Of a stretch of 43,399 nucleotides of DNA, positions 5,797 to 40,774 are shown piece by piece; the first letter of the stretch is position 1; the number at the start of each line of letters is the position of its first letter. The notes under the pieces are model-generated. The model saw nothing but the letters and a program-made list of their open reading frames with translations. It did no database searches and had not been told where the DNA came from. Location of the stretch: NCBI GenBank assembly GCA_028711995.1, contig JAQTRE010000013.1, forward strand, positions 1 through 43,399. Direction: 5' to 3'. This stretch comes from Dehalococcoidia bacterium (GTDB lineage: Bacteria > Chloroflexota > Dehalococcoidia > SZUA-161 > SpSt-899). The translations under genes and the position numbers were made by a program.

Positions 5797-5837
5797 CGAG
5801 AAAAGGGCAAGTAAAAAAAGTAGCAGAAGAGAACGAC

Positions 5838-16735: not shown

Positions 16736-17239
16736 TTATTTGAGGTTTCCACCCCGATCGGCAATCTTCTGGACCAGGCTCAAGAAGGTAATCTGTTCAT
16801 CAGTCGTTAGCCGTCCCATGATACGCAGAACCCTGCGCATGATTACGCTCTCCATTATTTCGTGAAACTGACGTCCGTTTTCGGTCAGTGCTATTCTGAC
16901 GATGCGCCGGTCGTTTGGATCGCCGGAACGTTCGGCAAACCCCTTCTCCACCCACCAGGAGACCAGCCGGGTAGCCGTGTAGGTTTCTATCTTGAGCTTC
17001 TCGCTCAACTCGCCCATGGTGAGCATTTCTTCCTGGCGCAGCAAGCGGTACATCTTGAAAAAAACCATTTCGCCTGCGATTTTCCCCGGTCCATCATTGC
17101 CTACCAGCATGTGAAATCGCTGCCGAATCTCTGCCACGTCCTCGGGGGTGGGGGATCCCATTTCGTCATACAGCTTGATAAAGTCATCCGGCAGATTGGC
17201 CAGTTTCTCGCTCAAGGTACTCTCATGTTCATCAGCCAT
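16736..17239 (-). CDS. MarR-family transcriptional regulator
   Basis: A 167-residue winged-helix protein. The DNA-binding region is Thr-Met-Gly-Glu-Leu-Ser-Glu-Lys-Leu (about residue 76) followed by the recognition helix and the wing signature Gly-Asp-Pro-Asn-Asp-Arg-Arg (about 111-117). Flanking helices at both ends would form the dimer interface. MarR proteins usually repress a divergent gene and release DNA on binding a small phenolic or hydrophobic ligand. Here the divergent gene is the glycyl radical enzyme, and the shared 324-nt intergenic region holds promoters for both plus a striking operator array. It is the obvious candidate repressor for that array. Confidence 0.88.
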   Translation of the reverse strand: MADEHESTLSEKLANLPDDFIKLYDEMGSPTPEDVAEIRQRFHMLVGNDGPGKIAGEMVFFKMYRLLRQEEMLTMGELSEKLKIETYTATRLVSWWVEKGFAERSGDPNDRRIVRIALTENGRQFHEIMESVIMRRVLRIMGRLTTDEQITFLSLVQKIADRGGNLK

Positions 17240-17394: not shown

Positions 17395-17423
17395 TTGACA
17401 TGGGCAGGAGACTGGGATATACT
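17395..17423 (+). promoter_or_regulatory. near-consensus sigma-70 promoter of the glycyl radical enzyme
   Basis: TTGACA at 17395-17400 and TATACT at 17418-17423 are separated by exactly 17 nt. The -35 box is perfect and the -10 box has five of six matches. Start of transcription is expected near 17430, giving a leader of about 134 nt. Such a strong promoter suggests control by repression, which fits the adjacent repeat array. Confidence 0.8.
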
Positions 17424-17426
17424 AAC

Positions 17427-17474
17427 TGCAACATGCAGTATTTGCATTATGCAGATTATGCAGCATGCAGGTAT
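17427..17474 (+). repeat. three tandem 16-bp operator-like units (TGCA-N3-TGCA)
   Basis: Three units start at 17427, 17443 and 17459. Each holds TGCA-N3-TGCA followed by G, so six TGCA cores are spaced 7, 9, 7, 9 and 7 nt. The unit consensus is TGCAnnATGCAGnnTn. The array begins 3 nt after the -10 box and covers the transcription start and first 45 transcribed bases, where a bound repressor would block RNA polymerase. A MarR dimer array is the simplest reading. Confidence 0.75.
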
Positions 17475-17563: not shown

Positions 17564-20038
17564 ATGGTGCAAATGAAATCACGCCAAGAGCAAAAGTCAT
17601 CCCGATTCGCCAGCGGCGAGAGGGCTCAAAAGCTGAAGAGCAAAAGGGTTCGCAAAAGCATGATAGTCTCCGTGGTAGAGGGCCCGAGGGGCCCGAAGAA
17701 TGTGTACACGTATCTGCCGGGGGTCAGGATTTGCCTGGAGACGGCCAGACTGCTGACCGAATCCTATAAGTCCACTGAGGGGCAACCTGAGGTCATCCGG
17801 AGAGCCATGGCTCTGGATCATATCCTGAGCAACATGACAATCTATATCAGCGATGACGAACTGATTGTAGGGAATTTTGCCAGCGATCCTTATGGGCTGC
17901 CCATTCACCCGGAACTTCAGTGGAGGGATATGGACGCCGTCATTAAGGGCGATCTGAAGCACATGGTGGATGAACGCGGCAAGGCAGATTGGGAAGAGAT
18001 TCGCAACTACTGGGAGGGAAAGACGGTTGATGACAGAATGCTCGCCATTCTGCCGGCTGAGGTAAAGAAAGTTCTGGGGCCGACGGGCAGGACAGAGATG
18101 ACCTGGGCGGCTCAGTGGGGATCTCAGAAGGGATTGGGGTCTCCCAATTATCAAACGCTCTTCGATCTGGGTTTCAACGGAATCATCAAGAAGGCCGAAG
18201 ACAGGCTGCTCCAGCTTGAAGACGAATTCAATAGCGGGAATATCTCCGGCGATGAATACATCGATAAACGCAACAATGTCCAGGCCATGATCATCGCCAG
18301 CAAGGCATCGATCAAGTTCGCCGGCAGATATGCAGCACTGGCCAGAGAGAAGGCATCTGCAGAGCAGAGTGACGAGCGTCGCCAAGAGCTTCTGGAGATC
18401 GCTGAGGTATGCGATTGGATACCCGGCAATCCCGCGCGGACTCTCCGCGAGGCTGTGCAGGCATGGTTTTTAAATCACATGGTCACGCGGTACATTGAGT
18501 ATCATGGCTCCGGCGAGGGGAGCCGGCTGGATGTATTGATGAACCCCTTCTATCAGAGGGATCTCGAGGCGGGGAGGATCACCCAGGAACAGGCCCAGGA
18601 GCTTCTTGAATGTACCTGGATGAAGATGGAGGAACTGGGAGAGATTGAGACCTCGGCGGTTCATCGTAACGAGGAAGGCGGCAGCCTGTATCAGATCATC
18701 AATATCGGCGGCATCACCGAGGACGGTGACGATGCCACCAATGATATGTCGTTCCTGATCCTCGATGCCTGTCAATCGATCCAGTGTATCCAGCCCAGCA
18801 TCGTGCTGAGATATCACACCAACATAAATCCGGAGCTGATCAGCCGGGCAGTAGATATGCTTCGAACAGGCATCGGTCATCCGGCGTTCATCAACGACGC
18901 CGTGTGCATCCCCTATCTGGTGAACCGAGGGATTCCGCTGAGAGATGCGCGGAACTGGGCATCCGGCGGATGTCTCCAGCCGATCATTCCCGGCAAAGCG
19001 ATGCAGAAAACTCACGGCGCGGCGGCGGCGATCCTCCTGCCCAAGGTCTTCGAAATCGCTATGAACCAGGGCAAGAGCATGCAGACCGGGATACAGCTGG
19101 GCCTGGTTACTCCTGATCCCACCACGTTCAAATCGCTCGACGACATGATGGACGCTTACGAAACCCAGTGGAGACATCAAATCGCGCACGTGGTGAAGGT
19201 AGACGAGCTGACCTGCAGTCTCTACAGGCGGTATCATCAGCGGCCGCTCATGTCGGCTCTGACGGACGATTGCATCGAGCGAGGCCAGGATTGCATGGAC
19301 GAATTCTACCATGACCTGTCCACCATCCACATCGCCGGTCAGATGAACGTCATCGACTCGATGGCGGCCATCAAGAAGCTGGTGTTTGATGAAAAGACCG
19401 TGAGCATGGCTGAGCTGCTCGACGCCTGGAAAAACAGTTTCAAGGGCAAAGAGGAGCTGTTCAAGAAACTGAGGAAGGCTCCGAAGTTCGGGAATGACGA
19501 CGAATATGTTGACCTGATCGCGCGGGAAGTCTGCAATCGCCAGCAAGCGGTGGTTGAGAGCTTCCACACAGAATCCGGCTGCATGTATACCATCGAAGGG
19601 AGCACGGCCACGGCGTACTTCCCGTGGAGCTTGAGGCAGCTGGCAACTCCCGATGGGAGAAGAGCCGATGAGTCATTTGCCGATGGCAGCATCTCCCCGA
19701 TGCACGGGAGAGATACCAGCGGGCCAACGGCAGTACTGAAATCGGCAGCCAGGGTGAATCCGAAATACTCCATGCTGCTGAACCAGAAATTCCTGCCGAT
19801 GTTCCTTGAGGGAAACAACAAGGCGCTGTTTATGTCCTATATCAAAACATGGGCTGATCTGGGATGCTGGCATATCCAGTTCAACGTGGTCAAACCCGAG
19901 GTTCTGCTGGATGCCCAGAAACATCCGGAGAACTACGGCAACTTGATCGTCAGGGTAGCGGGGTATAGCGCTCACTTTGTGGACCTGAGCAAGGGGCTTC
20001 AGGACGAGATCATTCATCGTTCGACACAGTGTTTCTAA
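17564..20038 (+). CDS. glycyl radical enzyme, pyruvate formate-lyase superfamily
   Basis: An 824-residue protein with both radical sites. The thiyl Cys470 lies in Ser-Gly-Gly-Cys-Leu-Gln-Pro, and the glycyl radical Gly800 in Arg-Val-Ala-Gly-Tyr-Ser-Ala, 24 residues from the C-terminus as usual. The N-terminal Asp-Asp-Glu-Leu-Ile-Val-Gly-Asn is also typical. The residue two after Cys is Gln, not the Glu used by glycerol/diol dehydratases, choline lyase and 4-hydroxyphenylacetate decarboxylase, and there is no Cys-Cys pair as in pyruvate formate-lyase. That leaves a fumarate-adding (X-succinate synthase-like) or unknown reaction. No activase or small subunits are nearby. The ATG follows GGGAGGGAG. 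A family III CoA-transferase downstream would suit a succinate adduct. Confidence 0.88.
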   Translation: MVQMKSRQEQKSSRFASGERAQKLKSKRVRKSMIVSVVEGPRGPKNVYTYLPGVRICLETARLLTESYKSTEGQPEVIRRAMALDHILSNMTIYISDDELIVGNFASDPYGLPIHPELQWRDMDAVIKGDLKHMVDERGKADWEEIRNYWEGKTVDDRMLAILPAEVKKVLGPTGRTEMTWAAQWGSQKGLGSPNYQTLFDLGFNGIIKKAEDRLLQLEDEFNSGNISGDEYIDKRNNVQAMIIASKASIKFAGRYAALAREKASAEQSDERRQELLEIAEVCDWIPGNPARTLREAVQAWFLNHMVTRYIEYHGSGEGSRLDVLMNPFYQRDLEAGRITQEQAQELLECTWMKMEELGEIETSAVHRNEEGGSLYQIINIGGITEDGDDATNDMSFLILDACQSIQCIQPSIVLRYHTNINPELISRAVDMLRTGIGHPAFINDAVCIPYLVNRGIPLRDARNWASGGCLQPIIPGKAMQKTHGAAAAILLPKVFEIAMNQGKSMQTGIQLGLVTPDPTTFKSLDDMMDAYETQWRHQIAHVVKVDELTCSLYRRYHQRPLMSALTDDCIERGQDCMDEFYHDLSTIHIAGQMNVIDSMAAIKKLVFDEKTVSMAELLDAWKNSFKGKEELFKKLRKAPKFGNDDEYVDLIAREVCNRQQAVVESFHTESGCMYTIEGSTATAYFPWSLRQLATPDGRRADESFADGSISPMHGRDTSGPTAVLKSAARVNPKYSMLLNQKFLPMFLEGNNKALFMSYIKTWADLGCWHIQFNVVKPEVLLDAQKHPENYGNLIVRVAGYSAHFVDLSKGLQDEIIHRSTQCF

Positions 20039-20159
20039 CCTGGTTTGGCAAGCAGGCTGTCTCGGGAAAGAGAAGTGTTTTGACCTGTAGCGGAGTTTAG
20101 GGGGTATATCCTTGGACTCCGGCAGAGAAATTGTTGAAAACGAAATATGGCGTCACGAA

Positions 20160-20203
20160 GAGCCGGAGCAGGAGAAGAAAGAACTCTCGCTCCGGCTCGT
20201 TTT
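20160..20203 (+). terminator. intrinsic terminator after the glycyl radical enzyme
   Basis: A 10-bp GC-rich stem (20160-20169 with 20189-20198) is followed directly by GTTTT. It lies about 120 nt after the stop codon, so the enzyme is probably transcribed alone. Confidence 0.7.
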
Positions 20204-20407
20204 GGGTGAGCCTACAGAAGAAATATGCCCCAAAGCCTTTAAGAGATGCCGGGTTACAGTCGGGATAATAATTCCAGGCTGAAAGGGCCGGGGGTAATTA
20301 GAGAATCGCGCTGAGGCAGGCGAGTTGATGCAACGGAAATAGCCTTTCATCGGTTCTAAGTAGTGTGCTCAATGTGGGGTTAGTGTGTTGAGCTTTAATC
20401 TTTGGTC

Positions 20408-20451
20408 ATCGTGGACGATATTCTGTGATAGTCATAATAGACGATAATCTA
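20408..20451 (+). promoter_or_regulatory. ATCGT-N2-ACGAT dyad and shared box upstream of transporter 1
   Basis: The dyad ATCGTGGACGAT occupies 20408-20419, and the 11-mer ACGATAATCTA occupies 20441-20451. Both elements recur upstream of the second transporter gene at 24523-24534 and 24530-24540. A shared regulator, perhaps the Lrp-type protein at 27198, is implied. The rest of the 20039-20698 gap holds the terminator and leader listed separately and no other gene. Confidence 0.6.
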
Positions 20452-20587
20452 GTGCATTCGATAAGCGCGAATTGCTCTCCGTGAAACCCATTGAAGGAGC
20501 ACAATTTAAAACAAATTCTTTGACAGTTCTCTGACGGTAAATGCCGAACATGAAACCGACAAATGAGATCGACTGTTCCTTAGCTGG

Positions 20588-20698
20588 AAGAAAGGAGAAT
20601 CTGCACCGAATGGTCCTAACTATGAGCCACCACCACTAAAAATGTCTCTCTATAGCAACCGTTAGTAACCAAAGCGCTGGAAAAGGAAGGAGAACACG
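20588..20698 (+). promoter_or_regulatory. leader of transporter 1, homologous to that of transporter 2
   Basis: The segment shares, in the same order as 24561-24667, AAGAAAGGAG (20588), CTAA-rich sequence, CACTAA (20634), TGTCTCTCT (20643) and a GGAGA-containing ribosome binding site (20689). UCUCU can pair with either the first or the real GGAG site, which would allow a translational switch. It does not match a riboswitch class I can recognise. Confidence 0.5.
20610..20639 (+). CDS. candidate 9-residue leader peptide ending in His-His-His
   Basis: ATG 20610 to TAA 20639 encodes MVLTMSHHH. It lies 12 nt after the first AAAGGAG of the leader. The other transporter leader has only ATG-ACG-TAA at the matching place, so the peptide itself is not conserved. 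It may be a translated regulatory mini-ORF or chance. Confidence 0.25.
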   Translation: MVLTMSHHH

Positions 20699-23002
20699 TT
20701 GATAGCGAAGATTCTATTGGGGGTATGGAATTTTACTCAAGGCAAGGCCAAGTGGATATTGCTCATTGCAGGCATTTTGCTGGTGGTGGCCATCATCGGA
20801 GCCACCCAGGTGAAAGTGACCAATGATTACACAGATTATCTCGATCCGAATGGACAAGTCTACAAGGACATCGATAAGCTGAATGAGAATTTCAGCAGCA
20901 GTACGATCCTTGTCATCATTGAAGGCGACAGCACTGCTCAGATCGTCAGCGACAAGAATCTGGCGGCAATGAAGTACTTTGATGAGCACTTCACGCCGAT
21001 GGAAAACGTGAAGTTCGTTATCACACCGGAGTACATGGTTCAGCTGGCAAAGATGCGAGCCGGCGGTGTCGATGATGGGAGGCCTACCGAACAATGGCTG
21101 ATCGATCCTCAAACCGGGCAACCCAACCAGGTGGCCGCGGGCGTCTTCTTCAATCCTACGGCCGCCAGGATGGTACTGAACCTCAAAGGCAATCTTAGCG
21201 ATTCACAAAAGCACGACTTTATAGAAGAGACGAAGAAAGTCGTCGCGGAAGGCGGTTTTGAGAATGTGCAAACAACAGTCACCGGTCAACTCTTGGTAGT
21301 TGACTACATGGTAACGAACATCCCCAAAACGGTTAGCAAGATTATGGTTGGTGCCGCAATTGCCATGGTCATCATTCTGGCAGTGATGTTCAGATCTCGC
21401 GGTTCCTTCCTCTGGCGATGGTTAACGCTGAGCGTCATTGGGCTCGCTGTCATCTATACCATGGGCATCATGGGATTTATAGACTTGCATATCACCGGTG
21501 TCTCTATGGCGGTATACCCCATATTGCTGGGGCTGGGCATGGACTACGCCATCCAGTTCTACAATCGCTATGATGAGGAAAACCGGAAAGGGTTAACGGC
21601 CGCGCAGAGCGTGAAAAACTCTCTGGAACATATCGGCCCTCCCCTGGTCATCGCCATGCTGGTGGCTTGTGCCGCTTTCGCCTCAGTGTTCTTTGCCAGA
21701 ACCCCGATGGTGCAGGGCTTCGGTAAGATGCTGATCATGGGCGTTGCGGCATGTCTGGTCACCTGTACGATGCTCTTGCTCCCTATCCTCTACCTGCGCG
21801 ATCGAAAGAACGACGCCACCAACAAGCCCGATGAAATAAGAGACTCGTCGATTGATAAGATGGCGGCATTCGTGGCTCACAAATCAGTTAAGTATATCGC
21901 CGTTATCCTGGTGGTCGCCATAGGACTTTCAGCCTATGGCTGGAGTCAAGAACACACTCTGAAGGGCGAAGTCGGATATAAGCACAGTATAAGAGAAGGC
22001 TCTGCAGTAATGAATGCCCTTCAGAAAGCTACAGACTTATCCGGAGGGGTCATTCCCGGGGATGTGATCGTGGATGCCCCCAATGTCCTTGACCCGGCTA
22101 TTCTGCAATGGCAGCTGGACACCGAGAAACGATTCATGGCGGATACCGGCATCCAGAATCCGGGCCATTATTCGGGTTCTGCCCAGAGTATATCGGATCT
22201 CTATATGTCAATCTTCGGGTCACTCCCCAAAGATGCCAAAACGGCACAATCCATGCTGGGGATGATACCAGAGAGAATGTGGATCAACTTCGTCAACAAG
22301 GATTTCACCCAGTCTCATATTGTGTTGATGAGCCAGTCTCCGGAAACTGAAGTTATTAAGACTTTCTACCAGGACGTGAGAGCGTATTTCGTCAACAACC
22401 CCGAGGGATCCAAGGTAACAGTGAGCGGTGACGGGCTGCTTCTCATAGAGCTGGCCAAGGATTTGGATGATAGCCGCACCCGGTTGACCTATATCGGGCT
22501 GGGATTTATCTTCGCCATGTTGCTGATCTGCTTCAAGTTCAAAATCGCCAGAGTGATCACGGCTGCCGTGCCCATTGTAATTATCCTTGGCTGGTCTGCG
22601 GTCATCATGGTCACCAAGGACCTGGGCGTGGACACCATGCTGGCGTTAATGCCGGCCCAGGTGATGGGAATCGGCGTAGAGTTCACCGTCCTGCTGCTAA
22701 TGCGCTATTACGAGGAGAGAGACAGGGGTGGAGTGCCCATGGATTGCATGATCACGGCCATGAGCCGGATCGGGCGCGCCATTGTGGTTTCAGGCCTGAT
22801 GGTGGCCGTTGGCTTCGGGGCATTGTATTTTGCCAAAGCCTTCCCAGGGATGAGCAATTTCGGATTCGTCACGGTGATCGACATGATTCTGGTGGTGGTC
22901 AGCACATTGATTGTGCTGCCCGGTATGGTGATCACCTTTGACAACTGGAATGACAAACGCAAGAAGGTTGCCGAACCAGCTAAACAGCCAATCAGCCAGT
23001 AG
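20699..23002 (+). CDS. RND transporter, HAE3/MMPL type, copy 1
   Basis: A 767-residue membrane protein starting at TTG 20699 after AAGGAAGGAGA. It has one N-terminal helix (about 18-38), a periplasm-side domain (about 40-210), five or six helices (about 212-365), a second outside domain (about 420-595) and a final helix bundle (595-755). The duplicated fold shows Gly-Leu-Gly-Met-Asp-Tyr near residue 280 and Gly-Ile-Gly-Val-Glu-Phe near 658, the acidic helix-4 positions that relay protons. The family moves hydrophobic or lipid-like compounds, such as hopanoids or mycolates. A terminator follows its stop. Its paralogue is at 24668. The substrate is unknown; linkage to the glycyl radical enzyme suggests a hydrophobic metabolite. 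Confidence 0.88.
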   Translation: MIAKILLGVWNFTQGKAKWILLIAGILLVVAIIGATQVKVTNDYTDYLDPNGQVYKDIDKLNENFSSSTILVIIEGDSTAQIVSDKNLAAMKYFDEHFTPMENVKFVITPEYMVQLAKMRAGGVDDGRPTEQWLIDPQTGQPNQVAAGVFFNPTAARMVLNLKGNLSDSQKHDFIEETKKVVAEGGFENVQTTVTGQLLVVDYMVTNIPKTVSKIMVGAAIAMVIILAVMFRSRGSFLWRWLTLSVIGLAVIYTMGIMGFIDLHITGVSMAVYPILLGLGMDYAIQFYNRYDEENRKGLTAAQSVKNSLEHIGPPLVIAMLVACAAFASVFFARTPMVQGFGKMLIMGVAACLVTCTMLLLPILYLRDRKNDATNKPDEIRDSSIDKMAAFVAHKSVKYIAVILVVAIGLSAYGWSQEHTLKGEVGYKHSIREGSAVMNALQKATDLSGGVIPGDVIVDAPNVLDPAILQWQLDTEKRFMADTGIQNPGHYSGSAQSISDLYMSIFGSLPKDAKTAQSMLGMIPERMWINFVNKDFTQSHIVLMSQSPETEVIKTFYQDVRAYFVNNPEGSKVTVSGDGLLLIELAKDLDDSRTRLTYIGLGFIFAMLLICFKFKIARVITAAVPIVIILGWSAVIMVTKDLGVDTMLALMPAQVMGIGVEFTVLLLMRYYEERDRGGVPMDCMITAMSRIGRAIVVSGLMVAVGFGALYFAKAFPGMSNFGFVTVIDMILVVVSTLIVLPGMVITFDNWNDKRKKVAEPAKQPISQ

Positions 23003-23006
23003 GGAC

Positions 23007-23049
23007 AACTCGGGGACCTCTAATGAAGAGGTCCCCGAGTTAATATTTA
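23007..23049 (+). terminator. intrinsic terminator after transporter 1
   Basis: A 14-bp perfect stem (23007-23020 with 23028-23041, 7-nt loop) is followed by a T/A-rich tract. It starts 4 nt after the stop codon and ends just before the CoA-transferase ribosome binding site, so the CoA-transferase relies on readthrough or on a cryptic promoter. Confidence 0.75.
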
Positions 23050-23067
23050 AAGGAGATTCACGGTAGG

Positions 23068-24282
23068 ATGACCAAGATGCCATTGGAAGGAATACGAGTC
23101 ATAGAGTGGGCGATGTGGCAGATGGGCCCATCTGCGGCCAGCATGCTGGGAGATCTGGGTGCCCAGGTTATCAAGATCGAGGACCGGATCGGCGGCGACC
23201 CGGCCAGGGGAGTGGGAAGTATCTGCAAGGCGGTGGTGAAAACCGAAACCCGCAATATCTTTTTCGACGCTTTCAATCGCAGCAAACAGAGCATCACCCT
23301 GGATATTCAGACCGAGCAAGGAAGAGAGATTTTCTACCAGCTGATAGAGAAATCGGATGTCTTCCTCCATAACATGCGGGTTGGCGTTGCCGAACGCCAG
23401 GGAATTGATTATGCCACTTTGGCCAAGCGCAATCCTAAGCTGATCTATGCCCATGCCTCTGCATTCGGACCCAAAGGGCCGGATGCAGGGCGTCCGGCAG
23501 TTGACTACGTGGGGCAATCCAGATCGGCATTCATGACCACGGTGGGTGAGCCGCAGATGCCGCCGGTTTATGCCATGGGAACTCCGGCCGATCAGATGGG
23601 GGCCCTTATGACCGTGAGCGGGATAGTTACCGCATTGCTTGCCCGGGAGAGGTTCGGGATCGGTCAGAAGGTGGATATCTCCCTTTTGGGAAGCATGGTA
23701 GCCCTGCAAACGTTCAACGTATCGGCAACCTTGAATATGGGACAGCCTTTGCCTCGAATGCCTCGAGCCGGGATGGGCAACCCGATCTACAATCACTATA
23801 GATGCGGCGATGACAAGTGGCTTGTGCTGGCGATGCAGCAATCGGACAGGCACTGGCCTGAGTTCTGCCAGGCCGTAGGACTGGAGAACTTGATTGACGA
23901 TCCCCGGTCAAACACCATACCAGCCAGAACCGCTAACGCCGAGACAATCATCGCCATTCTGGACAAGCTTTTTGCCACAAAACCGCGCCATGAGTGGCTG
24001 AAAATCCTCGATGGGAAGGATTTCGTCTATGGTCCCATAAACGACATGAAAGATCTGGTTCGCGACCGGCAGGTGCTGGAGAATGACTACATTATCGAAT
24101 ATGACGACCCCGGTAGGGGCAAGATCAAAATGATCGGGTTCCCGGTCAAACTAAGCAAGACACCGGCACGGGTGCAAAGCCCGATCCCCGAGTTCGGGCA
24201 GCACACCGAGGAAGTCCTTGAAGGGGTCCTGGGCTATAGCTGGGAGAAGATAGCCCAACTAAGAGAGCAACACGTCATCTAA
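23068..24282 (+). CDS. family III acyl-CoA transferase (CaiB/BaiF)
   Basis: A 404-residue cytoplasmic enzyme of the formyl-CoA transferase/CaiB/BbsF family, close to the usual length of about 400. The N-terminal Gly-Ile-Arg-Val-Ile-Glu-Trp and Leu-Gly-Ala-Gln-Val-Ile-Lys-Ile-Glu patterns are typical. The catalytic Asp is expected in Pro-Ala-Asp-Gln-Met-Gly near residue 175. The enzyme swaps CoA between two acids through an aspartyl-CoA anhydride. BbsE/BbsF of anaerobic toluene degradation belong here but act as a heterodimer; only one subunit is present. ATG 23068 follows AAAGGAG. Standing between two transporters and downstream of a glycyl radical enzyme, it may activate that enzyme's product. 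Confidence 0.88.
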   Translation: MTKMPLEGIRVIEWAMWQMGPSAASMLGDLGAQVIKIEDRIGGDPARGVGSICKAVVKTETRNIFFDAFNRSKQSITLDIQTEQGREIFYQLIEKSDVFLHNMRVGVAERQGIDYATLAKRNPKLIYAHASAFGPKGPDAGRPAVDYVGQSRSAFMTTVGEPQMPPVYAMGTPADQMGALMTVSGIVTALLARERFGIGQKVDISLLGSMVALQTFNVSATLNMGQPLPRMPRAGMGNPIYNHYRCGDDKWLVLAMQQSDRHWPEFCQAVGLENLIDDPRSNTIPARTANAETIIAILDKLFATKPRHEWLKILDGKDFVYGPINDMKDLVRDRQVLENDYIIEYDDPGRGKIKMIGFPVKLSKTPARVQSPIPEFGQHTEEVLEGVLGYSWEKIAQLREQHVI

Positions 24283-24371
24283 GTTGGTCCCTCTGAAGGG
24301 GATGAAAATATTTGACACCAACAAGAGACGAGACCAAGATACAATGACCCAATAGACGAAAAGATTTGCGA

Positions 24372-24415
24372 AGCCGACTCCAATTGCACATGAAGCCCGT
24401 GCGTTTGAGTCGGCT
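24372..24415 (+). other. nested hairpin upstream of transporter 2
   Basis: Outer arms 24372-24380 and 24407-24415 (9 bp) enclose inner arms 24386-24389 and 24399-24402. There is no U tract. It could end the CoA-transferase transcript or be part of a regulatory RNA in this 385-nt gap, which otherwise holds only the operator and leader listed next. Confidence 0.4.
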
Positions 24416-24521
24416 CCCGACCTCTCAGTCAGATTGCCATGGTAAGGAGTTCGGCTAGCATGCCGAAACTCGAGTTGCTGTTCTTAATGCAAGAAAGAGC
24501 GTGTGTTTTTAGTCTCACATG

Positions 24522-24540
24522 TATCGTATACGATAATCTA
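24522..24540 (+). promoter_or_regulatory. 14-bp perfect palindrome and shared box upstream of transporter 2
   Basis: TATCGTATACGATA at 24522-24535 is a perfect palindrome containing ATCGT-N2-ACGAT, and the overlapping ACGATAATCTA ends at 24540. Both features match the region upstream of transporter 1. The distance to the start codon is 128 nt. Confidence 0.6.
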
Positions 24541-24560
24541 TGGCGTACATATAGTGCCAA

Positions 24561-24667
24561 AAGAAAGGAGGAACTATGACGTAATCGTTCTAATCCTAAG
24601 CCGGCGTCACTAACAAGTGTCTCTCTTGGCAAATACCGGCAACTGAACACTGCGAAAGGAGGAGAAA
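24561..24667 (+). promoter_or_regulatory. leader of transporter 2 with decoy Shine-Dalgarno
   Basis: AAGAAAGGAGG at 24561 is followed 4 nt later by a minimal ORF, ATG-ACG-TAA (24575-24583). CACTAA (24608), TGTCTCTCT (24618) and AAAGGAGGAGA (24655-24665) follow, ending at the GTG start. The order and spacing match the leader of transporter 1 over about 110 nt. Confidence 0.5.
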
Positions 24668-26965
24668 GTGTTAGAGAAAATAAGCGGAGCCTGGTTTGGA
24701 CTGATCCGGAGCAAGCCGATTATATGGATTATAGTGGCTCTAGTATTATTGATTCCGGCGGGGATATTGGCCACAAAAGTGTCGTTTGGTTCCGACTATA
24801 CCACCATAATGAGGAAAGACTCTCAGGGGTACAAGGAGATGGTGGAATTCGACAAGTACTTTGCCAGCGAAAATGAGCTGGTGATCATGGAGGCTCCCCA
24901 TGACGTCTTGGTTAATGAGCAGAACTTCGCTGCCCTCAAGAAAATGGAGGGCGAGATAAGAGCGCTCCCTAACGCGTTCAACGTGTCCAGCCCTGCATTC
25001 ATGGTCGAGTTCATGAAGCAAATGATGGGCACGCCGAATGCTGCCCCGGATGATCTGATTTACGATCCTGCCACCGGCAAGATGCGGACCACGTTCAGCA
25101 GCTTCTTCTTCAATCCGGATGCCATGCGTCTGATCGTAAACCTCAAAGGAGACCTCAAGCTTGAGGATAAGGCTGATCTCGATGCGGGCATGAAAAAGGC
25201 TGCCGCCGAAGCGGGTTTCTCACCGGACGTGAAGATCACCGTTACCGGGGTGTCCTCTGTCATCGACTATGCCAATACTGAGATTGCCGGCGCCTTGACC
25301 GTCATCATGATAATCGCCTTTGTATTGATGTTCCTGATACTGCTCTTCTTCTTCAAGATGCGCGGCTTCTTCGCATGGCGGTTTCTGGCTCTCGGCGTGG
25401 TAGGCATCGGCCTCGTCTATACGTTCGGAATCATGGGCATCGTCGATCTCAATATCGCCCTGGCTTCCGTGGGCGCTTTCCCCATCTTACTGGGTTTGGG
25501 AGTGGACTATGTGGTCCAATTCCATAACCGCTACGATGAGGAACAGAGAAACGGGAAGACCGCCGACGAAGCGGGATTGGCAGCCTTCACCCATATCGGG
25601 CCGCCCATTATCATGGCTGTGGTCGTCGGTTGTGTGGGCTTCGCCACGGCTCTCCTCTCCAAGACTCCGATGGTTCAGGATTTCGGCTGGATGCTGATCA
25701 TCGGTGCGCTCATTCTTCTGATTGTTGCGCCTACTATTCTCATGGCCAGCTTGTATCGTCGAGATCGGAATAAGCCGGCCAAAGCAGATAAAGACGTTGT
25801 CCCCCCTGTTCTGGAAAGATGGCTGGGACATCTTGCGCCCAGGGTGGTCAAATATGCCATCCCCATTATTATCATCGGCGTCATACTGACAGGACTGGGA
25901 TGGGCCGTAGAAGGGAAGATCAAGACTACGGCCGTAGCCACGGATTTCGTGGGCGGTAACGTGCAAGTTACCAAAGATTTCAAACACATGGTCGATCTGG
26001 CTAATGGGGCGTCCGCTTCGATGTCATTTATTGAAGTTCCGGACGCAACCGATCCCAAGGTGCTTCAGTGGATGGTTGAGCGCAAGCAATACGCATTGTC
26101 CACGTACGGGAGAGCGGAAGGGAAAGGCACTGTCAACGGGCAAACCTCAATCGCTGACCTGATCATGAATTTCAGCGGCGGAAAGTTACCGGCTACTGCT
26201 GAACAGGCCAAGGCCATCGTGAATATGATCCCTGAGCCGCTGAAGAAAAACTTCATCTCTCCGGACTTCACAAAGGCCAACATTGCGACCGGTCTGCAAA
26301 CCTACGATCAGGAGTCCTACTATGTCGGGAGGGATGAGTTGACGGATATTTTCGGCCCAAACACACCACCTCCCGGCGCGACCCAGTATATTGCCTGGAC
26401 AGGCACGATCTCCATGTCCACCACAGTCGCCGATGACCTGGCCGACAGCCGCGAAAAGATGACGTTTTGGGGAATCGGCCTCTGTCTGATCGCCCTGCTG
26501 GTCATGTTCCGGCTTAACTGGAAAAGGGTTATCACTGCTGCCCTTCCTATCGGATTGATCCTTGGATGGTCGAACGGCCTGACGTGGTTGATGGATATAA
26601 AGGTCAATCCTGTCATGGCGACCATGACCGCTCTGATCCTGGGTATCGGCACCGAATTCACCATTCTGCTGCTGATGCGCTATTATGAAGAGCGGGACAA
26701 GGGCACGAGCCCCATTAAATCTATGAGCATTGCCCAGACCAAGATCGGACGCGCCATCGTTATCTCCGGGTTGATGGTGATCATTGGATTCGGCTCGATG
26801 ATATTTGCCTTTGACTTCCCCATCATTGCCGATTTCGGCACGCTCACCGTCATCGATATGGCTATGTGCATCATCAGCACGCTGGTGGTGCTGCCGGCCA
26901 TTGTGGTCACCTTCGATCTATGGCGTGAAGGAACAGAGAACGTCAAAGAAACAGCCCAGGCTTGA
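24668..26965 (+). CDS. RND transporter, HAE3/MMPL type, copy 2
   Basis: A 765-residue paralogue of the transporter at 20699, with the same helix and domain order. It starts at GTG 24668 after AAAGGAGGAGA. Helix-4-type motifs are Gly-Leu-Gly-Val-Asp-Tyr near residue 278 and Gly-Ile-Gly-Thr-Glu-Phe near 660, followed by the shared Leu-Leu-Leu-Met-Arg-Tyr-Tyr-Glu-Glu. The two outside domains differ most between the copies, as expected if substrates or partners differ. Bacterial HAE3/MMPL proteins can work as homotrimers or single units; a hetero-assembly of these two copies is possible but unproven. The shared upstream DNA suggests co-regulation. Confidence 0.88.
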   Translation: MLEKISGAWFGLIRSKPIIWIIVALVLLIPAGILATKVSFGSDYTTIMRKDSQGYKEMVEFDKYFASENELVIMEAPHDVLVNEQNFAALKKMEGEIRALPNAFNVSSPAFMVEFMKQMMGTPNAAPDDLIYDPATGKMRTTFSSFFFNPDAMRLIVNLKGDLKLEDKADLDAGMKKAAAEAGFSPDVKITVTGVSSVIDYANTEIAGALTVIMIIAFVLMFLILLFFFKMRGFFAWRFLALGVVGIGLVYTFGIMGIVDLNIALASVGAFPILLGLGVDYVVQFHNRYDEEQRNGKTADEAGLAAFTHIGPPIIMAVVVGCVGFATALLSKTPMVQDFGWMLIIGALILLIVAPTILMASLYRRDRNKPAKADKDVVPPVLERWLGHLAPRVVKYAIPIIIIGVILTGLGWAVEGKIKTTAVATDFVGGNVQVTKDFKHMVDLANGASASMSFIEVPDATDPKVLQWMVERKQYALSTYGRAEGKGTVNGQTSIADLIMNFSGGKLPATAEQAKAIVNMIPEPLKKNFISPDFTKANIATGLQTYDQESYYVGRDELTDIFGPNTPPPGATQYIAWTGTISMSTTVADDLADSREKMTFWGIGLCLIALLVMFRLNWKRVITAALPIGLILGWSNGLTWLMDIKVNPVMATMTALILGIGTEFTILLLMRYYEERDKGTSPIKSMSIAQTKIGRAIVISGLMVIIGFGSMIFAFDFPIIADFGTLTVIDMAMCIISTLVVLPAIVVTFDLWREGTENVKETAQA

Positions 26966-27037
26966 GGATCTGAACAATATTGAGATATGGGATGAATCCT
27001 GCACGGCTGAGTGTTTGAATCCGCACCCCTTTTTTCG

Positions 27038-27078
27038 CACAGGGAACTGCCTCGATATGGAGGAGGCAGTTCCCTGTG
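27038..27078 (+). terminator. 16-bp hairpin after transporter 2
   Basis: Arms 27038-27053 and 27063-27078 pair perfectly around a 9-nt loop, 72 nt after the stop codon. No U tract follows, so termination is inferred from stem strength and position. Confidence 0.6.
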
Positions 27079-27197
27079 TGTGAGTAGAGCGTCACCGAAT
27101 ACGCTTTACAGACTGATGGTTGATGACTTTGCAGGTCCAAGCTCCATCGGGATTGGAGTGATACTGAAGAGCGCAAATAATTTCACAGGAATAAGAA

Positions 27198-28193
27198 ATG
27201 AGTGAGAAAACCGCAAAAAAGCCCCTGGATGAACTGGATCGGATGATCATTAGTGAACTGGAAGTCGATGCCAGAAGAAGTGCCAAGGAACTCGCGGCCA
27301 AGCTGGGCACCAGCCATACCACAGTACAGCGGCGATTACGATACCTCCTCGATGAAGGGATCATTTCATTCGTCACCATCGCTGATCACAAAACCCTGGG
27401 ATACCTGACCCTGGTATTGCTGGGGATAAATATCCGCCCGGGAAAAGTGGATGCGGTAGCCACCCGGATCGCCTCCCTGGATTACTCCAAAATGGTTTCC
27501 GCCACCCTGGGCCATTATGATTTGCTGGTATCGATGTCCATCGAAGGCCTTGAAGATCTGGGCGGATTTGTCTCCACAGACCTGGGTGCCATTAAAGAGA
27601 TCACCAATATCGATTCTATGATCATCCTCGAAATCTTCAAAAACGATTGGTCCTGTCTGGTGGCCAATGGCCATATCATCCAGCGCCATCCCGGCAAAAA
27701 CCATCTGGACGAGTTTGAGAAAGCCTTGATCGGGGAATTGGAATTGCATCCCCGGGAAACCATTTCCGAACTGGCCCAGAAGCTGAGAACAAACCGGTTA
27801 ACAGTGAGCAAGAGACTGCAAGCGCTCCTGGAAAAAGGGATTATTCGAATTGTCAGTGTGCCGGACCTTTCTGCTCTGGGCTACAAGATATGGATAACGG
27901 TAAAACTGAAAGTCGATCCTTCTCAGATTCATGAAGTTGCCCAAACCCTCTGCGGCTATCCGAATGTGACGCAGGTCATCATGCTCACGGGAATGTATGA
28001 ACTGGGCATCGCAGCGGTGTTCAAAGATCGGACTGAGGTGTATGACTTCATGGAGAACCAATTGGGCCAGATCCCGGGAGTGATCGGGCATGAGGCGTTG
28101 ATGAATCTGAAGAGCTACAAGCGCGCTTTTGGGCTGCCGCCCCTGCGCGGACAACATATTGTAAATAGCAAATCGTTGACCTGTCCGGTTTAG
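27198..28193 (+). CDS. tandem-fused Lrp/AsnC transcriptional regulator
   Basis: A 331-residue protein that is two Lrp/AsnC modules in a row, about twice the usual 150-160 residues. Module 1 has a helix-turn-helix (about 10-58) with Leu-Asp-Glu-Leu-Asp-Arg-Met-Ile at its start, then a RAM ligand-binding domain (about 65-145). Module 2 repeats this: helix-turn-helix about 172-222 and RAM domain about 228-305. Such proteins usually sense amino acids or other small molecules and form DNA-wrapping octamers; a fused dimer would fix pairing. It lies after the two transporters and may bind their shared ATCGT-N2-ACGAT sites. Its stop overlaps the convergent copA stop by 4 nt. Confidence 0.85.
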
Positions 28194-33563: not shown

Positions 33564-36500
33564 CTATACCTCCACTAAGGCATCAACCATGGCTCCGATC
33601 TCATCCCTGGTGAAATGCCTGGTAGTCATAGCTCCTGTAGGGCAGACAACAGCACAACTGCCGCATCCCTTACAGAGCGCTTCGTTGACAACGCACACCG
33701 GCATCTTTCTGCCGTCTTTCAGAACGATCTCCGGGGCGTGATATTCGCACACATCTTCACATCGTCCGCAGCCGATACAGATGGACTCGTCGGCATGCGA
33801 AACCACCGCCTCAAGTGTCACCGATCCCCGACTGATCATCGCCAGCGCCTCTCCGGCTCCGCCGAGTGCTTGGCCGACAGTATCGGTGATATCCTTTGGC
33901 CCTCCGGCGCAGCCTATCACAAAGACACCGGCTGTCGGGGTGGCTATCGGATCGAGCTTGAGATGCTTTTCCTGGAAGAAGCCATCCGGCCGGCGGGAAA
34001 TGTTGAACATCCTCACGATGTCCTCCGAATCCGAACGCGGCTCGAGCGCCTGGCAAAGGATGACCATATCCACCGGCGTTCTCATCACGCCTCCCAGAAG
34101 CGTGTTATCGCCGACAACGACCAGCTTCCCTTTCTCTTCATCTGTGATAGCCTCGTCCGTGACCTTGGCCACTTTGCCGCGGACAAACTTGACGCCCTCT
34201 TCGGAAAGGCGCTTGTAGAACTCTTCATAGCCCTCGCCAAAGCAGCGCATATCAATGTAAAACTCGTATACTTGTGCGTCCGTCTTGTGTCTCACCAGAT
34301 GAGCATCTTTGAGGCCATACATGCAGCAGACACGGGAGCAATACTCGTGATAGTTCTTGTCGCGGCTGCCGACGCAGTGTACGATAGCCACACTCTCCGG
34401 CGTGCTGCCGTCTTTCATCCGTATCTCACCACCGGTCGGCCCGCCTGCGCTGCACATTCTTTCGAACTCCAGCGCGGTGAGAACGTTCTCATACTGACCG
34501 TAGCCGTACTGTTTAATTGGAGCAGGATCAAAGGCATCGAATCCGGTAGAGAGGATGATAGAACCAACCTCCACCTCGATGGTCTCATCCGGCATGTCAT
34601 AGTCGATCGCCCCGGCCTGGCAGAGCTTGGCACACTCGCGGCAATCGCAACAGCCGCCGCAGGCAAGACACCGCTTGGCCTCTTCCTGGGCTTGTTCAAT
34701 GGAGTAACCCAGTTCCACTTCCCCGAAGCTCTTGATGCGCTCCGCCGAAGCCTGCTCCGGCATCTCAACGCGCTCATGCACGGGGAATTCTTTTTTGAGT
34801 TCCGCGATCTCTTTCTCATCCAGTTTCTGCGGGGCCTTTTTCTCTTCGACAGCCGGGGTTTCTCCCTTTAAGTAGGCATCGATAGATTTGGCTGCTTTCT
34901 GTCCGCCGGCTATTGCATCTACAACCATCGCCGGTCCGGTGACTACATCTCCGGCGGCGAAAACGCCCTCAATGTTAGTCGCCAGATTATCATTGGCTAC
35001 AACATTCCCCTTGGCTGTCTTCAATCCCAGAGCCTCAGCAAAGTTGACATGGGACGTCTGCCCAAGCGCAGTGATCACCGTGTCCACATCAATAGTAAAC
35101 TCCGATCCCTTAATGGGAACAGGCCGCGGCCTGCCGCTTGCATCGGGCTCGCCCAGCTTCATGCGAATGCATTCGATCTTGGCTGCCTTGCCCTGCTGAG
35201 CATCTATCTTGACGGGATTGGCCAGGAACATCAACTCGATCCCCTCGTCCTCTGCGCCCTTGACCTCTCCTGCATTAGCGGGCATCTCCACCCGGGTGCG
35301 CCGGTAGATCAGAGTCACTGAAGCCCCGAGTCTGCGCGCCACGCGAGCGGCGTCGATAGCAGTATTGCCTCCGCCGATCACGGCCACCTTGGCTCCCACC
35401 TTGACCTTCTTGCCCAGGTTTATCTCCCGCAGGAAATCTACGCCCGTAATAACGGCCTTGGAGTCTTCGCCCGGAACCCCCATCTTGACGCTGCCGTGGG
35501 CTCCGGTGGCAACCAGTATCGCCTTGTAATCGCGTTTCAGATCTTCGATCTTGACCTGCTCACCGACTTTAACGCCTGTTTTTATGTCAACTCCCAGCTT
35601 CTGAATGTAAGCGATATCCTTGGCCAGGATATCCTTGGGCAGACGATACTCCGGAATTCCCACGCGCAGCATTCCGCCCGCTTCAGGCAGGGCTTCAAAT
35701 ATCGTTGGTTCATATCCTAGTAATGCCAGATCGTTGGCGGCTGCCAGTCCTCCCGGCCCGCTGCCGATGATGGCCACCTTCTTGCCGTTCTTGGGAATCT
35801 GGGGGACTTCGATCTTATCGATATCCACCTGATCGCAGAGGAACCGCTTCAGTGAAGCGATAGCCAGCGGATCATCCACATATCCGCGCTTGCACGCAGT
35901 CTCGCAAGGATGATAGCAAACGCGACCGCAAATAGCCGGGAGAGGATTGGTTCTCCTCATTACCTGGTAGGCTTCCTGGAATTTCCCCACGGCGATCAGC
36001 GCCAGATAGCCCTGGACATCCATGTTAATCGGGCAAGTAAGCTTGCAGGGCGGAGTCTCTCTCTTATCGATAAGGAATTTGTTGGGAATGGCCTGCGCAA
36101 AAGGCCTGTAAATAGCCTTGCGTGTGTTCATCCCCTCATTAAAAGCGTTCGGAATATCCACGGGGCAACCCTTGGTGCAATCCCCGCAGGAGGTACATTT
36201 CTTCAGATCGACGTAACGAGCCTTTTTCTTGATCTTGGCCTTGAAATTCCCAACGTAGCCCGATACTTCTTCCACCTGGCTGCAGCTGAAGAGCTCGATG
36301 TTCGGGCTGGAACCCACATCGGTCATCCTTGGAGTCATGGTACACTCAGAGCAATCGAGGGTCGGGAAGGTGACATCCAACTGCGCCATGTGGCCGCCGA
36401 TGGAAGCCTCTTTCTCCACCAGATAAACTTTGTTCCCGGAGGCCGCGATCTTGAGCGCTGCCGTCATACCCGCAATGCCGCCACCTACCACAAGGGTATT

Positions 36501-36926
36501 GGGGTTCACTGGGGCCTCTCTGACCACCAGAGGTTCATGGAGACGAACCCTGCTTACCCCGGCCCGGATCAAATCCTTGGCCTTTTGGGTGGCCGCTTCC
36601 TTATCCGTATGAACCCAGCTGCAGTGCTCCCGAACGTTTACCTGCTCGTACAGATAAGGGTTAAGCCCGGCCTTGGCGCACGCATTGCGGAAAGTCAGCT
36701 CGTGCATCCGCGGCGAGCAGGAAGCCACCACCACTCGATCGATTCCGTTTTCCCTGATATCTTTCTGGATGAGCTCCTGTCCAGGCTCGGAACACATATA
36801 CATGTAGTGTTGCGCCGAGGCTACCGAGTCCAACCCGGCAGCATATTTAGCTACTTCTTCAACCTCCACTGTGCCGGCGATATTCTCGCCGCAGTGGCAA
36901 ATATATACACCCGTTTTCTCTGCCAT
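33564..36926 (-). CDS. hdrA: HdrA fused with a GltD/NfnB-like NADPH-flavin module
   Basis: A 1120-residue fusion, much longer than a typical HdrA (about 650). Order: HdrA N-terminal cysteine region (residues 1-140); FAD motif GGGIAG (148-153); HdrA signature Asp-Cys-Ser-Glu-Cys-Thr-Met-Thr-Pro (191-199); a [4Fe-4S] site (Cys244, 247, 250, 254); a GltD-type cysteine-rich N-domain (Cys294, 298, 333, 337, 341, 345); a second FAD motif GSGPGG (388-393); an NAD(P)H motif GGGNTA (518-523); a central Cys-rich segment (near 740-760); the HdrA C-half; and two C-terminal ferredoxin sites. Such a flavin hub could bifurcate electrons. MvhD follows; CCG proteins precede in the same operon. Confidence 0.92.
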   Translation of the reverse strand: MAEKTGVYICHCGENIAGTVEVEEVAKYAAGLDSVASAQHYMYMCSEPGQELIQKDIRENGIDRVVVASCSPRMHELTFRNACAKAGLNPYLYEQVNVREHCSWVHTDKEAATQKAKDLIRAGVSRVRLHEPLVVREAPVNPNTLVVGGGIAGMTAALKIAASGNKVYLVEKEASIGGHMAQLDVTFPTLDCSECTMTPRMTDVGSSPNIELFSCSQVEEVSGYVGNFKAKIKKKARYVDLKKCTSCGDCTKGCPVDIPNAFNEGMNTRKAIYRPFAQAIPNKFLIDKRETPPCKLTCPINMDVQGYLALIAVGKFQEAYQVMRRTNPLPAICGRVCYHPCETACKRGYVDDPLAIASLKRFLCDQVDIDKIEVPQIPKNGKKVAIIGSGPGGLAAANDLALLGYEPTIFEALPEAGGMLRVGIPEYRLPKDILAKDIAYIQKLGVDIKTGVKVGEQVKIEDLKRDYKAILVATGAHGSVKMGVPGEDSKAVITGVDFLREINLGKKVKVGAKVAVIGGGNTAIDAARVARRLGASVTLIYRRTRVEMPANAGEVKGAEDEGIELMFLANPVKIDAQQGKAAKIECIRMKLGEPDASGRPRPVPIKGSEFTIDVDTVITALGQTSHVNFAEALGLKTAKGNVVANDNLATNIEGVFAAGDVVTGPAMVVDAIAGGQKAAKSIDAYLKGETPAVEEKKAPQKLDEKEIAELKKEFPVHERVEMPEQASAERIKSFGEVELGYSIEQAQEEAKRCLACGGCCDCRECAKLCQAGAIDYDMPDETIEVEVGSIILSTGFDAFDPAPIKQYGYGQYENVLTALEFERMCSAGGPTGGEIRMKDGSTPESVAIVHCVGSRDKNYHEYCSRVCCMYGLKDAHLVRHKTDAQVYEFYIDMRCFGEGYEEFYKRLSEEGVKFVRGKVAKVTDEAITDEEKGKLVVVGDNTLLGGVMRTPVDMVILCQALEPRSDSEDIVRMFNISRRPDGFFQEKHLKLDPIATPTAGVFVIGCAGGPKDITDTVGQALGGAGEALAMISRGSVTLEAVVSHADESICIGCGRCEDVCEYHAPEIVLKDGRKMPVCVVNEALCKGCGSCAVVCPTGAMTTRHFTRDEIGAMVDALVEV

Positions 36927-36941
36927 ACTTACCCCTTGGAC

Positions 36942-38090
36942 CTAAATGGCCTCTCTTGCTAATTCTGCAATGTCCTTGATCTCTATGCCGCTGCCTTTCT
37001 CCGAAGACAGAAGGCTATCCTCGAAATTGCTCATGCAATACGGGCAGGCGACCGCCAGAATCTCAGCGCCCGTTTCGATAGCTTGATTGAGCCGAATATC
37101 GGAGAACCTTTCTCCCTTCTTGGTCTCCATCCATATCCTGCCACCGCCGCCGCCACAGCACAGCGCCAGCTCGCGATTATCCTTCATCTCAACCAGTTCC
37201 AACCCGGGTATGCTCTTCAGAACCTTTCTGGGCTCATCATAGATTCCACTGTGCCGACCCAGATAGCACGGATCGTGATAGGTGACCCGCTTGTTCAGGC
37301 TCTTAGTAAACTTGAGCTTGCCCTGCTCGATCATCTGGGCGAGATACTGAGTCATGTGTATCGCTTCGAAGTTACCGCCCACCTCCGGGTATTCGTTCTT
37401 GAAGGTGTAATAGCAATGGGGAGAATTGACGACGATCTTTTTAACGCCCTTCTCGGTGAAGACCTGGGTATTGTCCCTGGCGAGCGACTGCATCAGAGAC
37501 TCATCTCCTGCCTTACGCACGCTTTCGCCGCAACAGCTCAACTCTGCGCCAAGCACGCCATAGCTTGCCTTGAGCGCATTCAGGACATCGGCTCCGGCCT
37601 GGGCCGCCCTCTGAATCTTGGCATCATAAGCAGTGAAACAACAGGCAAAAAAGAGGAAATCCATCTCTTTGGAGAAGGTCTTCACATCCCGCCCTTTAGT
37701 CCATGCCATCCGCTTTTCCTTCGACTCACCGTAAGGGTTGCCTATCGCGGCGATGTTCTTCAGCGTGACTTCAAGCGATTTGGGAACATGTCCGAATCCC
37801 ATTCCCACCATCGCCCTGCGGAGAGCCCTCATCACATCGATGATCTCCACACCGCGAGGACACCGGTCGACGCAAGCATGACAACTGGTGCACATCCAGT
37901 TATCCTCGGACTCGAAATCGATGAGGCCCAGTTGCGACTGGCCCATGATCTTGCGGACGGGAAAACTCCTGACCATGTTCCAGGGACAAGTTCCTGTGCA
38001 GAGCCCGCACTGATAACAAAGCCGGAGCGGCTCGCCACCGGCCTCCACTATAACTTGTACTGCTTCCTCAAACGGAGTTAATGTTGTCAT
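36942..38090 (-). CDS. CCG-domain iron-sulfur protein, HdrD/GlpC-like, full two-CCG form
   Basis: A 382-residue protein. Two [4Fe-4S] motifs occur near the N-terminus: Cys25-x2-Cys28-x2-Cys31-x3-Cys35 and a second set in Met-Cys-Thr-Ser-Cys-His-Ala-Cys. Two CCG domains follow: an Ala-Cys-Cys with Ser-Cys-Cys-Gly-Glu (residues about 150-195), then His-Asp-Pro-Cys with Cys-Cys-Gly-Gly-Gly-Gly-Gly (about 270-320). HdrD and relatives use CCG motifs for a special [4Fe-4S] cluster that does thiol or disulfide chemistry. In this operon it would carry electrons from the dehydrogenase side to HdrA. It lies 15 nt upstream of HdrA and 18 nt downstream of a second CCG protein. Confidence 0.88.
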   Translation of the reverse strand: MTTLTPFEEAVQVIVEAGGEPLRLCYQCGLCTGTCPWNMVRSFPVRKIMGQSQLGLIDFESEDNWMCTSCHACVDRCPRGVEIIDVMRALRRAMVGMGFGHVPKSLEVTLKNIAAIGNPYGESKEKRMAWTKGRDVKTFSKEMDFLFFACCFTAYDAKIQRAAQAGADVLNALKASYGVLGAELSCCGESVRKAGDESLMQSLARDNTQVFTEKGVKKIVVNSPHCYYTFKNEYPEVGGNFEAIHMTQYLAQMIEQGKLKFTKSLNKRVTYHDPCYLGRHSGIYDEPRKVLKSIPGLELVEMKDNRELALCCGGGGGRIWMETKKGERFSDIRLNQAIETGAEILAVACPYCMSNFEDSLLSSEKGSGIEIKDIAELAREAI

Positions 38091-38108
38091 ATTTAATACC
38101 TACCGGAG

Positions 38109-40606: not shown

Positions 40607-40710
40607 CTGCTTCGATCTCCTTCAGGCGTTTGTTCCTGAGACGGGTCACTTTAGCGGCGTAACCCATCCTGATTTCAGTATAGCATAGGCAATTATCGGT
40701 TTCACGAAGA

Positions 40711-40738: not shown

Positions 40739-40774
40739 CCTTGTTCCTCTAGGTTTGTAGTCAGATGGAGACTA

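Follow-up and report, generated by a model that had tools for sequence, protein, structure and literature searches.

The reactions of glycyl radical enzymes (GREs) begin with the abstraction of a hydrogen atom by a thiyl radical. Among them are the X-succinate synthases (XSS), whose addition of substrates to fumarate is considered the most widespread anaerobic attack on hydrocarbon C-H bonds (PMC12358834), and a fumarate-addition operon was published for Atribacteria UBA6251, with an Fe-S small subunit described as unique to the fumarate-adding enzymes (PMC6776118). The residues contacting fumarate were reported for benzylsuccinate synthase (BSS) (PMC4848970, PMC12358834), and Arg508 of BSS, or Arg492 of (1-methylalkyl)succinate synthase (MASS), is the common fumarate-binding Arg (PMC12358834). 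The window analyzed here, a stretch of 43,399 nucleotides (contig JAQTRE010000013.1) from the Dehalococcoidia bacterium assembly GCA_028711995.1, encodes a GRE of 824 aa (17564-20038, + strand), followed by two MMPL-type transporters and a family III (CaiB-type) CoA-transferase. The stretch is contig C13 of the source genome (G000; 3.32 Mb in 240 contigs, 96% complete and 4.5% contaminated); other C-numbers are contigs of this genome, and L- and G-numbers are the loci and genomes compared. The RpoB of the source genome gave unbroken alignments, at 63-66% identity, with four named Chloroflexota/Dehalococcoidia genomes and only fragmentary ones with the other genomes compared, in keeping with a member of the Chloroflexota, probably of the Dehalococcoidia. 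In the literature searched, no description of a sister group to the fumarate-adding enzymes was found, and GREs were linked with Dehalococcoidia by single mentions only.

Phylogenetic position and active site

Two maximum-likelihood trees gave the same topology, in which the window GRE was placed inside a 23-row clade (support 100/99). The sister of this clade was the XSS clade (100/100), composed of MasD, TutD, L068 (Atribacteria UBA6251) and L037, and the joint node was supported at 100/97. The window GRE stood beside the XSS clade and not inside it, and glycerol dehydratase, propanediol dehydratase (9rco), CutC, HYPD, IslA and HpsG all fell outside the joint node. The tree references were rebuilt from printed HMMER alignments, with chain ends missing and a few typing slips possible. 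4-Hydroxyphenylacetate decarboxylase (HPAD), the arylacetate decarboxylases and pyruvate formate-lyase (PFL) were absent from the trees, and the profile scores of HPAD, arylacetate decarboxylase and classic PFL to the clade were among the lowest. By its sequence, the window GRE is a member of an uncharacterized clade that is sister to the fumarate-adding X-succinate synthases. The first-pass annotation was right in that the window GRE belongs to no described GRE class among those compared; the tree sets it apart from the dehydratases, CutC, the hydroxyproline enzymes and the sulfonate lyases.

Both PFL-like and Gly_radical domains (PF02901, 581 bits; PF01228, 97 bits), a thiyl Cys, an RVxGY glycine and the GRE fold were present, which make the protein a member of the GRE superfamily. 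Inspection of the motifs put the thiyl Cys470 in SGGCLQP and the radical Gly800 in RVAGY, just as the first-pass annotation had them, and its Gln was also found two residues after Cys470 (Gln472), at the position of the glutamate in the CxE motif. Gln was the same in 4/4 full-length window-type members, and the residue in 32 clade members was R15, Q5, S4, Y3, V2, D1, E1 and I1, where CxE enzymes have Glu. Compared with the CxE dehydratases and lyases (glycerol/diol dehydratase, CutC, HYPD, IslA and HpsG), the window GRE shared the fold and the Cys and Gly loops, and with glycerol dehydratase also PGK after the Cys motif, but it had CLQ and stood on a separate branch of the tree. Among NCBIfam profiles, the protein was under every cut-off, with TIGR01774 as the top (589.7 vs 678.2), and the 4-hydroxyphenylacetate and indoleacetate decarboxylase profiles gave 329 bits (cut-off 1150) and 381 bits (cut-off 1100), respectively. 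The Cys-Cys pair of classic pyruvate formate-lyase was absent, with a single Cys470 in GGCLQ and 110 bits to 1h16.

When compared with XSS (BSS/TutD 4pkc, MASS/MasD 9o8u and Atribacteria FaeA), the window GRE was alike in its fold, the lack of the CxE glutamate, the surrounding CoA-transferase and the presumed C-H activation, but most of the residues of BSS that hold fumarate were not kept, Arg508, Trp613, Asn615 and Gln707 aligning with Gly485, Thr587, His589 and Ser680. Slightly ahead of the Arg508 position, by one or two residues, the window family has His484 and most relatives have an Arg. An exact alignment of His484 with Arg508 was set aside, as the profile alignment puts Gly485 there, and loop 484-487 of the AlphaFold2 model had pLDDT <50. 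It is a speculation that the basic residue near 484 (His or Arg) could bind a carboxylate or stand in for Arg508. Near the position of BSS Trp613, Tyr582 was found in 94% of the clade and in 5% of the others.

The AlphaFold2 model (mean pLDDT 87.6, pTM 0.90, from a 47-sequence alignment) was recognized by Foldseek as a GRE fold, with glycerol dehydratase 1r8w as the top match (E 1.7e-59, TM 0.89). BSS and MASS had TM 0.88-0.89 to the model and 30-31% identity in the structural alignment. Since the predicted fold was equally near to the dehydratases and to BSS/MASS (TM 0.85-0.89), the comparison of structures was uninformative on class and was dropped as a discriminator.

Paralogues, neighbors and activases

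The enzyme had been called an orphan, which did not hold: five close paralogues of it were found in the source genome, which has 14 GRE genes in all, and the best mechanistic clues were on other contigs (the benzoyl-CoA-reductase-like and old-yellow-enzyme-type genes of C64). Eleven of the 14 genes were full-length and three ran off contig ends (C102, C103 and C152). Six genes were of the window type, at 74-90% identity (C35b, C51 and C64 besides the window gene, and C152 and C103 at contig ends), and class B had seven with a CTQ or CVQ motif (C35a, C95, C79, C12, C131, C116 and C102; L011 and L014-L019), while the C14 GRE was the sole CxE-type gene. The window type and class B both have CxQ, are amplified and occur with same-strand CaiB genes (in class B at C79, C131, C116 and C12), but they are only about 32% identical and fall on different branches of the tree.

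Near several class B GREs there were genes for CaiB, Lrp-type regulators and ABC binding proteins. An assignment of class B as BSS-like with small Fe-S subunits was dropped; the nearest solved relatives by score were the glycerol/diol dehydratases, the tree position away from XSS also counted against it, and at C12, C79 and C131 the short matches of ferredoxin type directly preceded FAD oxidoreductase genes.

Nine of the 14 GREs had a same-strand CoA-transferase within 3.1 kb, where 0.9 was expected from random placement of 38 CoA-transferase genes (our own count from profile matches), and this was reached in 0 of 20,000 simulations; the limit was picked knowing the window distance of 3.05 kb, and eight of the nine loci were within 2.1 kb. 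A same-strand MMPL gene was within 6 kb of four of the 14 (expected 0.73, P 0.005, with 18 MMPL genes counted in the same way). The co-occurrence of GRE, MMPL and CaiB genes suggested by the first-pass annotation was thus above chance within the source genome, but the four-gene linkage was not found in other genomes. Clustering revealed CoA-transferase, a two-domain Lrp regulator, MMPL, a periplasmic binding protein and flavin reductase as the neighbors common to GRE-bearing contigs.

On C64, one strand carried BzdN-, BzdO- and BzdQ-like genes (with scores a little short of the NCBIfam cut-offs), a second BzdQ-type activator, a ferredoxin, CaiB, the GRE and a flavin reductase. With its row of BzdN-, BzdO- and BzdQ-like, second activator and ferredoxin genes, C64 resembles the bzd-type benzoyl-CoA reductase operons, which are not known to carry a GRE. 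A recent benzene-activation gene cluster, in the available part of its description, has type III CoA-transferases and no GRE. C51 had CaiB, an HMG-CoA-lyase-like gene, the GRE and flavin reductase, and C35b had the GRE, CaiB and MMPL. The CaiB gene of C64 (L013:8004-9204) was split into two overlapping frames, which may be a frameshift, a pseudogene or an assembly error, and a transposase gene (L012:4487-5272) lay between the flavin reductase and etfBA-like genes of C51.

No open reading frame (ORF) for an activase or a BssB/C-like or AssB-like subunit was found near the window GRE, in agreement with the first reading of this DNA. A scan for small ORFs at the window, C35, C51 and C64 gave no small Fe-S accessory subunit except a 95-aa ferredoxin at C64, and the same scan gave Cys-rich small ORFs adjoining the XSS-type genes L037 and L068. 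In this respect the window GRE differs from XSS, as it lacks both small Fe-S or rubredoxin-type subunits and an adjacent activase. The genome-wide search for an activase that had been proposed revealed two genes reaching the activase model, at C12 and C14 (the next match had 38 bits vs a cut-off of 174), and neither adjoins any retrieved window-type GRE. With only two activases found for 14 GREs, activation of the window-type enzymes in trans is probable, unless the assembly lacks an activase. The genome G044 (same class, 5 Mb) had about 23 GREs and five activases, and was the most GRE-rich among those compared.

Relatives in other genomes were found by a scan with divergent members, since an alignment of the own paralogues alone was too narrow and gave none. 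The best relatives, 36-48% identical, came from metagenome-assembled Nitrospinota, Thermodesulfobacteriota, Myxococcota and Chloroflexota, and many had an adjacent activase (L048-L050, L052, L055, L058, L060, L079 and G003). HGD-D-family genes adjoined the GRE in L043 and L044, two of the nearest. G026 had GRE-CaiB-CaiB consecutively, with a flavin reductase less than 7 kb away, and it was the only genome outside the source genome with adjacent CoA-transferases. No MMPL gene was within 4 kb of the GRE in the relatives, one being at about 5 kb in G003. Aldehyde:ferredoxin-oxidoreductase-family genes, a family that includes benzoyl-CoA reductase of the BamB type, were about 2-5 kb from clade GREs in three genomes (L045:6078-7943, L049:14605-16569 and L050:4748-6715). 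L037 (G036:C3) combined a (1-methylalkyl)succinate synthase resembling MasD with two activase genes and two small Cys-rich ORFs, and its host, of the same class and probably Dehalococcoidia, is a candidate alkane degrader.

Proposed pathway and alternative explanations

Family III CoA-transferases form CoA thioesters, and HAE3 RND pumps transport hydrophobic compounds. A single explanation for the locus would be an uncharacterized radical C-H activating GRE with a hydrophobic substrate, followed by CoA activation and RND transport. It is the explanation preferred here, tentatively, as its chance is put a little below even. The clade, the recurrent module, the missing CxE glutamate, the lack of subunits nearby and the lack of a local activase are read from the DNA and protein sequences. 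The step that the GRE catalyzes may well be an anaerobic C-H activation of a new kind, and its substrate class is probably hydrophobic, aromatic or alicyclic.

In the proposed pathway, the radical would be put on Gly800 in trans by one of the two radical-SAM activases, most likely that of C12, and Cys470 would then abstract hydrogen from a C-H bond in the hydrophobic, probably aromatic or alicyclic substrate. As there is no Glu base, the substrate radical is proposed to rearrange or to add to an unsaturated partner, and not to follow the common 1,2-elimination. The CaiB-type transferase could convert the acid product into its CoA thioester, and the thioester would be degraded by CoA-dependent steps, through a benzoyl-CoA-reductase-like or a beta-oxidation path. 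For the paralogous operon of C64, degradation would involve the benzoyl-CoA-reductase-like enzyme and the old-yellow-enzyme-type reductase. The two RND transporters may carry the hydrophobic compound or its products, and the Lrp- and MarR-type regulators would switch the module. For the clade in general, an undescribed GRE reaction may be supposed, that is, single-subunit C-H activation without the CxE base or the known fumarate site, in which paralogues differing in specificity share one or two activases; this is possible, at a chance that falls somewhat short of even.

Besides its amplification in the source genome, the clade is represented in metagenome-assembled Chloroflexota, Thermodesulfobacteriota, Myxococcota and Nitrospinota. 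If C-H activation does proceed here without accessory subunits, such enzymes would be simpler to express and study than benzylsuccinate synthase, and uncultured Dehalococcoidia-type organisms would gain an unrecognized role in anaerobic carbon breakdown. With many GREs and few activases (14:2 here and about 23:5 in G044), the idea of one activase for many enzymes is directly testable.

Several observations weigh against the proposed pathway. HGD-D, CaiB and MMPL are all abundant in the source genome (24, 40 and 33 profile matches), so some GRE neighborhoods may reflect general enrichment. An activase could be missing from the 240-contig bin. The GRE and transporter genes may be separate units, given a terminator-like hairpin and a gap of 660 bp between the GRE and the first transporter gene. 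Furthermore, the full GRE-MMPL-CaiB-MMPL set was found in no relative. The first-pass annotation was to be given up if the enzyme was clearly placed in a known class and the four genes were not linked in related genomes; the linkage was lacking, since no relative has the full set, and the tree gave no placement in a known class.

The window GRE might instead be a true fumarate-adding enzyme without small subunits, with CaiB loading CoA from succinyl-CoA onto a substituted succinate, as in BbsEF or LssDE. This is less likely than the preferred explanation. The sister position to XSS in the trees and the lack of the CxE glutamate in both groups agree with it, and so do the CaiB pair directly after the GRE in G026 and His484 (Arg in most relatives), which lies one or two residues before the BSS Arg508 position. 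Known pathways also have family III CoA-transferases acting after fumarate addition, as is established for BbsEF, and the succinyl-CoA-dependent CoA-transferase LssDE acts after limonene addition (PMC12583861). But the fumarate-binding Arg of BSS and MASS (Arg508/Arg492) is aligned with Gly485, the other three residues of BSS are replaced by Thr587, His589 and Ser680, and no Fe-S small subunit was near the four scanned loci, while candidates were seen at L037 and L068.

An ordinary GRE lyase (a decarboxylase, dehydratase, or C-N or C-O lyase) whose substrate needs no Glu base, so that Gln, Arg or another residue stands in its place, is rather improbable. Glycerol dehydratase 1r8w was at the top in both pairwise score and Foldseek, and the fold is about equally near to all classes, as would suit a lyase. 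However, in the tree the clade is separate from the reference sequences of the dehydratases, CutC, HYPD, IslA and HpsG (100/97), CxE is nearly missing from the clade, and HPAD, arylacetate decarboxylase and PFL stood among the lowest profile scores.

That the transporters and CoA-transferase merely stand beside the GRE and serve another pathway, the GRE, CaiB and MMPL families all being amplified, is quite doubtful: the 24 to 40 profile matches each for HGD-D, MMPL and CaiB, the hairpin 3' of the GRE and the linkage unconserved in other genomes speak for it, but the nine of 14 GRE loci with a same-strand CoA-transferase (expected 0.9) speak against it, as does the link with CoA-transferase across two GRE groups about 32% identical.

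Gene layout and regulatory DNA

The GRE, CoA-transferase and two transporter genes of the first-pass annotation were all recovered in their places by ORFs and domain profiles. MMPL1, an MMPL/HAE3-like RND transporter of 767 aa (20699-23002, + strand; PF03176, 158 bits), has a TTG start and the ribosome-binding site AAGGAGG. The family III CoA-transferase of 404 aa (23068-24282, + strand; PF02515, CoA_transf_3, 383 bits) has Asp146 placed by the motif VDYVGQ, and none of the specific NCBIfam equivalogs was reached. MMPL2, an HAE3-family RND transporter of 765 aa (24668-26965, + strand; PF03176, 152 bits), has a GTG start and the same ribosome-binding site AAGGAGG. Against TIGR00921 (HAE3), with a curated cut-off of 351.9, MMPL2 had 369 bits and MMPL1 317 bits, so of the twin HAE3/MMPL transporters proposed both have MMPL domains, and MMPL2 alone is over the HAE3 cut-off.

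Two regulator genes flank the module. A MarR-family regulator of 167 aa (16736-17239, - strand; PF01047, 32 bits) is divergent and head to head with the GRE, and a two-domain Lrp/AsnC regulator of 331 aa (27198-28193, + strand), recognized by a domain profile search, has homologues on five further GRE-bearing contigs of the source genome by clustering.

Strong regulatory DNA had been claimed for each gene, which was found for the GRE but not for the others. A sigma-70-type promoter, TTGACA-17-TATACT, with 11/12 consensus positions (17395-17423, + strand), was the top-scoring site of the 12 kb scanned, whereas the transporter and CoA-transferase genes had ordinary 9/12 matches only. Promoter-like matches in the scanned region numbered 20, with 11.3 expected from shuffles. 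Directly 3' of the -10 element of the GRE promoter lies the operator-like palindrome ACTGCAACATGCAGT (17425-17439), followed by further ATGCAG-like words up to about 17470, and it may act as a putative operator. The palindrome was not conserved upstream of the GRE paralogues. A common operator upstream of the six window-type paralogues was rejected, nothing being shared except the ribosome-binding site, and among the six, -35/-10 elements of at least 10/12 were present only for the window GRE and C152 genes.

Downstream of the GRE, a sequence scan gave a terminator-like hairpin, GAGCCGGAGC..GCTCCGGCTC, then GTTTT (20160-20198, + strand), inside the 660-bp gap before MMPL1, and because of this hairpin and gap a single transcript from the GRE to the transporter is uncertain. 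A perfect 16-nt inverted repeat (27038-27078), missed by the terminator scan, was present between MMPL2 and the Lrp-type gene. The putative inducibility of the module rests on the promoter, the two neighboring regulator genes and the palindromes.

Outside the module, long ORFs of 369, 473, 557 and 516 aa at 59-1168, 3369-4790 and 5727-8947 had no Pfam match at E 1e-10. At 33564-41800 (- strand), a cluster of genes for a 1120-aa Fe-S flavoprotein, two proteins with Cys-rich (CCG) domains, an FAD-linked oxidase and a D-2-hydroxyacid dehydrogenase resembles a unit for the oxidation of 2-hydroxyacids. In the source genome, the 24 PF06050 matches correspond to about 12 HGD-D gene pairs of the benzoyl-CoA reductase/2-hydroxyacyl-CoA dehydratase type, and such pairs share contigs with CaiB or MMPL genes on C5, C28, C62, C81, C91, C147 and C176.

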